Assembly (NCBI GenBank): GCA_014728425.1
Contig: WJLO01000082.1
Location: forward strand, 1 to 6,213
Length of the DNA: 6,213 bases
Direction of reading: 5' to 3'
Origin: Minisyncoccota bacterium
GTDB lineage: Bacteria > Patescibacteriota > Microgenomatia > UBA1400 > PJMF01
Shown: piece by piece, positions 5,066-6,213 of the stretch
Position numbering within the stretch: position 1 is the stretch's first letter
Layout of the letters: the number at the start of each line of letters is the position of its first letter
The notes under the pieces: generated by a model
Databases searched by the model: none
What the model was told of the DNA's origin: nothing
The model's input: only the letters and a program-made list of their open reading frames with translations
Position numbers and translations under genes: made by a program

Positions 5066-5469
5066 ATCCAAGCTTAAATCAGTTTCGGTTGTTTTGGGAT
5101 TTATTTGGATTTTTGCCAAAAAACTGCATTTTTTGCATCAAAAAAGCAATTTTTTACTTGCCAACGATCATTAAACACTCAAGTCTTCAAAAACAACTTT
5201 ATGATTTTTCCCGTTTTTGAGTACAATTTGACTTGAGTTAGACATGGTTTTAATTATCATCTTAAACTAACTCAATCAACAACCCTAGCCTGCAAAACCC
5301 AACTTAACCAGCATTAATCTGATTAAAACAAAATTCCAAGATTCTCAAAAATTATAGGATGCTAAACACCAAACAACTACCAAGAAACTCGCACAACCTC
5401 TCCCGCTTAGCTCACTAAAAAAACTCATCTGCGCTATTTAGCCAAACAGCCAATTAACTATTAAAACGC
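5066..5469. other. Gene-free stretch before the repeat array
   Basis: No supported gene. The left part is rich in A and T runs (for example GCATTTTTTGC at about 5126-5137) and includes the inverted repeat at 5177-5238. From about 5380 the sequence (AAACTCATCTGCGCTATTTAGCCAAACAGCC and on to AACTATTAAAACG) resembles the stretch after unit C (near 5872-5910, containing GGCTAAACAGC). It is therefore probably degenerate repeat-array material leading into unit B. Confidence 0.4.
5177..5238. repeat. Two-step imperfect inverted repeat
   Basis: The outer arms ACTCAAGTC (5177-5185) and GACTTGAGT (5230-5238) are perfectly complementary over 9 bp. The inner arms TCAAAAAC (5187-5194) and GTTTTTGA (5213-5220) are perfect over 8 bp. 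The loop is 18 bases; one base separates the arms on the left and nine on the right. It lies in no gene and has no U-tract suited to a terminator. It could be a transcribed hairpin, a protein-binding palindrome or a relic of a mobile element end. Function is not evident. Confidence 0.6.
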
Positions 5470-5638
5470 CTGATTTACTAACCAACAAACACCATGAGGC
5501 TGCTAATTAACAACCATCCAGGCGCTGGCGCAAGGAGCACAATTTTCTCGAACTAGTGAGAGCAAAATTAGTGTCCTGGAGCCAAAACTAGCTAGGCTCT
5601 TAACTATTAAGCATGTTTTTAATTTCAACTACTTTTTG
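5470..5638 (+). repeat. Structured repeat, full unit B
   Basis: This unit is 169 bases long and matches unit D at 165 positions. The differences are three in the 5' block and one in GCAA versus GAAA after CTGGC. Helices: a 5' hairpin GGCTG/CAACC with one mismatch; CCAG-GCG-CTGG (5518-5528); and the long stem AGGA (5533-5536) with TCCT (5574-5577), then CAC/GTG, AATTTT/AAAATT and CTC/GAG, capped by a loop containing ACTAGT. Next comes GAGCC/GGCTC around the invariant CCAAAACTAG. It ends with CTTAA-CTA-TTAAG followed by CATGTTTTT, which could act as a weak terminator of an RNA read on the plus strand. Confidence 0.88.
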
Positions 5639-5690
5639 CAGGTTAAATTACTTTGAAAAGAAGAGTGTTTTTTTTGAATGTTAAAAAGCT

Positions 5691-5835
5691 TAATCTACTA
5701 ACCCACAAACTCCATGAGCTAGTTGTTAAACAACCACTAGGCACTGGCGGCGGGATCACAATTTCCGACTCCCTTTATGGGTTGAGGAAATTAGTGGCCC
5801 AGAGCCAAAACTAGAGAGATTCTTAACTATTAAGC
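5691..5835 (+). repeat. Structured repeat, diverged full unit C
   Basis: The ordered blocks are kept (CTACTAACCC, CTCCATGAG, the core stem, AGAGCCAAAACTAG, CTTAACTATTAAGCA) but the core sequence differs strongly from B and D. The 5' hairpin is GTTGT/ACAAC. CTAG/CTGG (5737-5740 with 5744-5747) replaces CCAG/CTGG using a U-G pair. GGG (5752-5754) with CCC (5798-5800) replaces AGGA/TCCT. CAC/GTG is kept. AATTTCC (5760-5766) with GGAAATT (5786-5792) replaces AATTTT/AAAATT. The apical part is CCC/GGG around TTTAT. Changes on both sides that keep pairing argue for selection on structure. The tail matches that of unit A (CAGTTCGTTCTAAC). Confidence 0.85.
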
Positions 5836-5939
5836 AGTTCGTTCTAACTGTTAGAAACTAAAACTTCCTTAAACTCACCTCTAGTGTTCGGCTAAACAGC
5901 TTTTTACTAATACCATTTGTTCACTAAAACTTAGTTGGT
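5836..5939. other. Spacer after unit C, degenerate array sequence
   Basis: It continues the tail shared with unit A (TTCTAACTGTTAGAAACTAAA and on). It then contains a stretch resembling the sequence before unit B (AAACTCACCTCTAG, GGCTAAACAGC) and ends TTAGTTGG, which can pair with the following TTTACTAACCAA. No gene or separate element is seen. Confidence 0.4.
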
Positions 5940-5969
5940 ATTTACTAACCAATAAACACTACTAACTGT
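5940..5969 (+). repeat. Isolated 5' block of the repeat family
   Basis: TTTACTAACCAATAAACAC matches the 5' block of the units but is followed by ACTAACTGTG and a T run, not by the folded core. It is a fragment or strongly eroded unit within the array. Confidence 0.55.
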
Positions 5970-5997
5970 GTTTTTTAGATTACTAAAGGAATTGGCC

Positions 5998-6044
5998 TAC
6001 TAACCAACAAACACCATTGGCTCGCTTTTTAACTATCAAGACCC
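5998..6044 (+). repeat. Short (internally deleted) unit next to unit D
   Basis: The 5' block (TACTAACCAACAAACACCAT) is joined directly to GGCTCGCTTTTTAACTATCAAGACC, lacking the folded core. It closely matches the short unit at 1931-1974 and stands in the same place relative to its full unit, so the pair is a conserved composite arrangement found twice about 4 kb apart. Confidence 0.7.
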
Positions 6045-6213
6045 CTGATTTACTAACCAATCAACTCCATGAGGCTGCTAATTAACAACCATCCAGGCGC
6101 TGGCGAAAGGAGCACAATTTTCTCGAACTAGTGAGAGCAAAATTAGTGTCCTGGAGCCAAAACTAGCTAGGCTCTTAACTATTAAGCATGTTTTTAATTT
6201 CAACTACTTTTTG
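6045..6213 (+). repeat. Structured repeat, full unit D (array continues past the edge)
   Basis: This unit is nearly identical to B (165 of 169). The outer pairing CTCC (6065-6068) with GGAG (6153-6156) can enclose the unit. Inside are CCAG/CTGG (6093-6096 with 6100-6103) and the long stem: AGGA (6108-6111) with TCCT (6149-6152), CAC (6113-6115) with GTG (6146-6148), and AATTTT (6116-6121) with AAAATT (6139-6144). GAGCC (6154-6158) and GGCTC (6170-6174) form a competing 3' hairpin. The window ends exactly where identity with B can no longer be tested, so the repeat may extend further. Confidence 0.88.

Follow-up and report, generated by a model that had tools for sequence, protein, structure and literature searches.

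A composite intergenic repeat of several ordered unit types in a small draft bacterial genome, oriented with local GC skew and possibly spread as a non-autonomous mobile element

Structure of the Locus

The window analysed here is the whole of contig C71 (6,213 nt), which belongs to a draft genome of 846,113 bases in 124 contigs, rated as 81% complete. It contains four full copies of a repeat, of 144–148 nt each and in a single shared orientation, on the forward (+) strand, as are all of the repeat features described below. Unit A (type I, 1976–2123) lies between a DUF2207 gene on the reverse strand and the leader of rplJ, and was recovered, like unit D (type I, 6045–6188), by the repeat, blastn, and covariance-model searches; units B (type I, 5470–5613) and C (type C, 5690–5836) were recovered by blastn, profile, and covariance-model matches. 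The first-pass annotation had described four full, same-orientation units with ordered invariant blocks, and this was borne out, as TACTAACC, CCATGAG, CAC..GTG, GAGCCAAAACTAG, and TAACTATTAA follow one another in this order in all four. Additional occurrences of TACTAACC are found at 5943 and 5998, and of TAACTATTAA at 5455, and none of the four fixed-letter blocks was found on the opposite strand of the window. The longest repeat family recovered in the window by the repeat search extends over 185 nt, with units A and D being 69% and 96% identical to unit B, respectively, and by blastn, the most divergent of the four is unit C, which is 73% identical to unit B.

Array A opens at its 5' end with a short, core-less module (S, 1930–1981), recognized by eye, in which the profile matches unit positions 5–44 only, and it closes with a 3' tail (2124–2145), also delimited by eye, which is similar to the tail of the second array on contig C44. 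Just downstream from this array, at 2175–2258, there is a match to the Ribosomal protein L10 leader, with a score of 33.7 bits against a curated cut-off of 44 bits and an E value of 0.01.

The second array begins with a unit-tail fragment (5444–5475), identified by its repeat depth, which contains the occurrence of TAACTATTAA at 5455. A connector (5614–5689), traced through colinear matches and also present in contigs C70, C98, and C44, leads from the type I to the type C unit, and is followed, after unit C, by a second connector (5837–5996), common to C70, which includes the truncated unit start at 5943. A further core-less module (5997–6050), recovered by both the repeat search and a profile match, precedes unit D, which is followed by the start of a connector (6189–6213), cut by the contig end. 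In this segmentation, the bodies of units A, B, and D begin at 1982, 5476, and 6051, directly after the module or fragment that precedes each. The partial units that had been suggested are real, and comprise the tail piece, the truncated start, and the core-less modules. The final 107 bases of the contig, to which the last connector belongs, are identical to copy B, and the identity of a contig end to another copy is a usual sign of an assembly break within a repeat. The spacing and identity of unit D are thus less certain, and the array itself is cut by the contig end, given that the window is the whole contig.

This array is gene-free, as had been supposed, with no open reading frame of at least 60 amino acids overlapping 5454–6213, and a simple consensus scan recovered no promoter-like or terminator-like sites in 5444–6213.

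Distribution in the Source Genome and Its Relatives

The source genome is rich in copies. Searches by blastn returned 34 matches when unit B was the query and 39 with the array of contig C70, while a covariance model built from 20 units (R1) returned either 38 or 35 matches, depending on the filter, and eight under the strictest filter. The family forms 15 arrays on 13 contigs of the 846-kb draft, two each on C71 and C44, and one each on C114, C111, C98, C31, C56, C70, C59, C105, C115, C51, and C67, which amounts to approximately 7 kb of sequence. As five of the 15 arrays touch a contig end (C71, C31, C51, C105, and C67), their true number is likely to be higher.

The units of any one array all have the same orientation, and all 10 of the arrays whose two neighbouring genes are present on the contig are intergenic. 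The flanking genes of these arrays are co-directional in five cases, convergent in four, and divergent in one, with convergent gaps accounting for 4/10 arrays versus 20/142 array-free gaps (p = 0.053). This composition speaks neither for nor against a boundary or processing element, which was also proposed at the outset. The array neighbours, classified by domain, include the ribosomal proteins L10 and S15, a penicillin-binding protein, DprA, YebC, Lon, SmpB, topoisomerase I, and RecG. In one locus (L016, 3985–4841), lon and smpB are separated by a multi-unit array, and in another (L018, 4710–4715), the first-unit profile match of the C59 array overlaps the final bases of the recG frame. A stretch of approximately 1.85 kb (L012, 1199–3050), flanked by an array and the gene of a Xer-like recombinase, contains no open reading frame of more than 64 amino acids. 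The G+C content of 14 arrays ranges from 33% to 42%, and that of windows along one source contig, from 34% to 45%.

The wider searches returned no copies. There was no blastn match in 51 other relatives, and R1 found none in the other genomes of the family (41), the order (87), or the phylum (a sample of 378); these sets overlap, and the wide runs were strictly filtered, the widest recovering only eight units of the source genome itself, so that distant forms can be missed. The covariance-model search proposed in the first reading thus recovered further copies in the source genome and none in the relatives covered. An exact pattern had no matches in a collection of genome contigs from which the source genome may be absent. 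In 400 kb of a genome of the same family, 0.13% of the bases are repeated at a depth of at least 3, and not as comparable arrays; the value for the source contigs is 6.6%, although these were chosen for holding arrays, and the contrast is not a fair one.

No recognizable family had been identified in the first reading, and the comparison with Rfam agrees, given that no array was matched, either in the window (at E values of up to 1) or in stretches of 12 other source contigs (at gathering scores); a known RNA family was rejected on this basis. Cargo of phages or plasmids was also rejected, as window positions 5454–5846 had no blastn match in phages and plasmids, and two exact patterns had none in viral contigs. 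The literature searches returned nothing relevant on repeats in the genomes of candidate phyla, and no comparable repeat family in relation to repeat orientation, among the matches listed.

Unit Types and Inferred Block Copying

Iterated profile searches recovered 54 matches on the same strand, to which the profile was restricted, since the core is palindromic and a strand-free run draws matches on the opposite strand. In eight short modules, which have no core, the match is limited to the first 39–44 unit positions. A type was assigned to 33 of the 34 aligned units, sorted manually by sequence, as I (16 units), C (5), II (5), V (4), or IV (3). Units of the same type in different arrays have a mean identity of 84.6% (144 pairs), in comparison with 66.8% for units of different types within one array (32 pairs). 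The best 5' to 3' order of the types, II-IV-I-C-V, has four conflicts in 32 pairs, and was equalled or bettered in 30 of 2000 permutations. The C70 and window arrays are colinear over 722 bp, at 89% identity, with both connectors included. This match, together with the similarity of like types across arrays and their largely fixed order, indicates the copying of multi-unit blocks, and not the separate growth of each array. By eye, the array edges are decayed, and the units found there are often the most diverged; S modules open the arrays A, C98, C44a, and C51, while the 3' ends vary. Immediately beyond their edges, the arrays have dissimilar flanking sequences.

One explanation of this pattern is a passive satellite, in which tandem arrays would spread by recombination and unequal exchange following rare segmental copies, with their orientation reflecting the greater stability of hairpin DNA in one orientation, and not insertion. 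The head-to-tail units of approximately 145 nt, the core-less deletion units, the decayed edge units, and the shared multi-unit blocks are all consistent with such a process. However, unit types resemble each other more between distant arrays than inside a single one, which argues that local exchange was not dominant, and the differing sequences just outside the arrays also stand against the satellite, which is considered here to be unlikely.

Orientation Relative to GC Skew

When the arrays are masked, the + strand of the repeat coincides with the C-rich strand of the local GC skew in 13 of the 15 arrays (two-sided binomial p = 0.007) or, if the window is counted once, in 12 of 14 (p = 0.013), with both values being uncorrected for other looks. 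The exceptions are the C51 array and the second C44 array (13.6–14.1 kb). Contig C31 was counted as agreeing, on the basis of its overall (−0.11) and intergenic (−0.17) skew, while its fourfold sites, all from genes on the minus strand, give +0.17. On C44, the GC skew changes sign near 17 kb, within a long gene (L014, 16000–20000).

At fourfold sites, the two strands of the source contigs differ strongly in composition, with gene strand and contig together determining the asymmetry. Outside the arrays, the fourfold-site GC skew varies from contig to contig, whichever strand the genes are on, in the same way as the strand bias of replication. The leading strand is the G-rich one in most bacteria. 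The GC skew probably marks the direction of replication in the source genome, and if its G-rich strand is the leading one, the minus strand of the repeat would lie on the lagging-strand template. The arrays also run opposite the majority coding strand in eight of 11 single-orientation contigs, a weaker, related pattern, so that the direction of the genes is not fully separated from that of replication.

An orientation of this type might also be maintained by selection, if the repeat were a host element with a one-directional effect on the fork or the chromosome, through pausing, segregation, or lagging-strand priming, for example. The agreement with the skew favors this possibility, as does the conservation of core pairing between types I and C despite their different inner letters. 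A selected function would nevertheless be difficult to reconcile with the lack of a match in the 378 other genomes sampled from the phylum (under strict filters), or of a comparable array in the 400 kb of the same-family genome, or with the decay of several units and the weak folding of five of the 20 cores, all of which make a host element decidedly unlikely.

Hairpin Core and Coding Potential

Units of types I and C both contain an imperfect hairpin of 46–51 nt, with different inner letters. In the window, this core occupies positions 2038–2083 in unit A, where it folds weakly (z = −1.4), 5532–5578 in unit B (z = −3.1 as DNA), and 6107–6153 in unit D (z = −2.5 as DNA), while the core of unit C (5751–5801; z = −2.9 as DNA) has other inner letters on the same fold plan, as reflected in the pair counts. 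As DNA, the mean z of the core is −2.2 (20 units), with five of the 20 cores at −1.4 or nearer zero, and as RNA, it is −1.5 and −1.7 on the two strands (20 units); z favors neither strand. The mean for whole units as DNA, of about −1.0 (34 units), is unremarkable. The foldable core described in the first-pass annotation thus exists, but is modest.

In the alignment of 20 units, 94% of the pairing cells pair, versus 91.2% in shuffles, and both sides are changed in 10 cells, versus 2.5. Further pair types are no more common than in shuffles (10 vs. 10.7), and the double changes occur in only three of 20 pairs, which is reached in 67 of 500 shuffles, and mostly represent one contrast, that of type I with type C. 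RNAalifold keeps three pairs in the 34-unit alignment. The structure of the core is real, though not strong.

The suggestion that the units form a multi-copy small RNA family, or a cis-regulatory one, has found little support. The hairpin core and its partial covariation speak for an RNA, but the conserved pairing amounts mainly to a contrast of one type with another, RNAalifold retains few pairs, and the z values obtained as RNA are modest. The arrays, moreover, have no Rfam match and no fixed relation to gene direction, being found in all gene arrangements, and the consensus scan recovered no promoter-like or terminator-like site in 5444–6213. Overall, an RNA family appears highly improbable.

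Of the 34 units of at least 125 nt, 32 have a stop in all six frames. The excess of silent changes by frame reaches at most 1.4 sd in type I and 1.8 in types I and C pooled, and is below 1 in types C and V (six frames); in type II (5 units), there is an excess in two of the six frames, of 29 vs. 19.7 (sd 3.5) and 25 vs. 17.4 (sd 3.5), that is, 2.7 and 2.2 sd. A hand-made, one-frame peptide returned 51 matches at E values of up to 10, many of them stop-free, including one within an open frame of 99 amino acids, and all located in or at the arrays, with no source gene seen. The remains of a protein gene with a repeat unit of approximately 48 codons would account for the stop-free matches and the type II excess, but is barely credible given the stops, the lack of a silent-change excess in types I, C, and V, and the confinement of the peptide matches to the arrays, and a coding origin was rejected, as the six-frame translation, silent-change test, and peptide search yielded no intact gene.

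Mobility Genes and Proposed Origin

Five mobility domains were sought in the 81%-complete source genome, that is, Y1, reverse transcriptase, TnpB, tyrosine recombinase, and rve. There were no matches to the HUH Y1 transposase (PF01797), the TnpB zinc ribbon (PF07282), or the reverse-transcriptase domain. The two tyrosine recombinases found are Xer-like, with their best scores being obtained with the XerC and XerD models, albeit below those cut-offs, and reaching only 113 and 81.9 bits with the integron-integrase model, versus a cut-off of 265. The core pair (RYYYAAC ... GTTRRRY) of attC, one of the known families named at the outset as a possible refuting match, is absent from all 34 units on either strand. 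An integron was rejected, given the lack of this pair and the low recombinase scores.

Two rve transposases were also found, one of them above the cut-off and IS3-like, and the other below it and IS30-like. The former belongs to an element with two overlapping frames and inverted ends of approximately 20 nt (L090, 1241–2584), while the latter is a transposase frame at L091, 280–1215. The ends of the IS3-like element are unmatched in 14 arrays, the best match having six mismatches in 20 and lying outside the array, no inverted repeat of at least 20 nt joins the array ends in the window, and no transposase genes were seen beside the arrays. The mover may have been lost, may be encoded in the fifth of the genome that is missing from the draft, or may be of another kind.

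The reading preferred here, to which about an even chance is assigned, is that the arrays are a BOX/MITE-like, non-autonomous composite repeat, found in one genome of those searched, which was probably spread by parasitic copying linked to replication, with a predicted insertion in step with the fork, and is now probably decaying. A non-autonomous mobile repeat with a mover that acts at the fork is suggested by the fact that the arrays are gene-free, intergenic, not found in relatives, copied in blocks, and oriented by skew. Three possible identities had been advanced originally, and the non-autonomous element is the best fit, given the dispersed, intergenic, mosaic, and skew-oriented distribution of the repeat in a single genome among those searched. 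The absence of further copies in the source genome or its relatives had been named as a refuting condition, and this came out partly against the first reading, as copies were abundant in the source genome, but were not found in the relatives.

In the proposed mechanism, composite blocks, rather than single units, would be copied to new sites, using one DNA strand at the fork, by means of either an HUH-type or a sliding-clamp-guided transposase, or the annealing of single-stranded copies. The hairpin core may have served the one-strand copying step, and the short modules would be units that have lost this core. A bolder version, which is very unlikely as it stands, is that the repeat represents a new class of replication-coupled, single-strand mobile repeats, in which whole multi-unit blocks enter a single strand at the fork with no HUH transposase of their own, and that the reduced genome either lost the usual mover or never had it.

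Comparison with Known Repeats

The repeat is a new family among the composite interspersed repeats, a group that includes BOX and BIME. It is unusual in that its several unit types follow a largely fixed order, and in its replication-like skew orientation in a small genome that yielded no IS200-type enzyme.

The bcr1 repeat of the Bacillus cereus group is approximately 155 bp long, dispersed, and limited to one group, and thus resembles the present repeat, by description, in its size, dispersal, and restriction, although the arrays described here are ordered and contain several types. Integron cassette arrays are also formed by partly structured units that all face the same way, but they differ in having the attC core pair, which is lacking here, where the two recombinases are Xer-like. 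The arrays differ from MITEs in that no inverted pair of at least 20 nt joins their ends in the window, and those of the IS3-like element are unmatched in 14 arrays, and they are not A+T-rich in comparison with the host.

The BOX elements of Streptococcus pneumoniae are described as composite, modular, intergenic elements of a narrow lineage, which appear to be dormant, parasitic, non-autonomous mobile elements, and which are found, like the IS elements of the pneumococcus, in excess between convergent genes (PMC3049150). The present repeat resembles them in being composite, modular, intergenic, and of narrow lineage, with a tendency to lie between convergent genes (p = 0.053), and it probably shares their parasitic, non-autonomous mobility. 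It is unlike BOX in its middle units of approximately 138–145 nt, its five or more types in a largely fixed order, and the fact that its orientation follows the GC skew.

The REP/BIME palindromes are intergenic, are also found in arrays, and are linked to RAYT transposases, with single-strand processing having been proposed (PMC3733652). The intergenic placement of palindromic units and their arrangement in arrays are shared with the present family, whereas REPs are only 20–40 bp long (PMC3733652), in contrast with repeats of approximately 140 bases here, in a genome in which no Y1 transposase domain was found. A search of one strand of 3/34 units for the REP-type tag (GTAG or CGTC) that lies at the base of the palindrome found none.

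The IS200/IS605 elements are oriented by the direction of replication, and several other clamp-binding IS families have a similar bias (PMC5371812). The copies described here resemble them in being oriented with replication, as deduced from the skew (13/15 arrays), but differ in that no transposase gene was seen beside the arrays and neither a Y1 nor a TnpB domain was recovered from the 81%-complete genome.

Repeats of this kind would be expected to be lost from small genomes, yet approximately 7 kb of this one belongs to a family that the searches recovered from no other genome. Should a closed genome bear out the orientation with the fork, the family would provide a natural test of the replication-linked spread of short non-coding DNA where no IS200-type enzyme is seen. 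Such arrays are also likely to break short-read assemblies, as reflected in the five of 15 that lie at a contig end.
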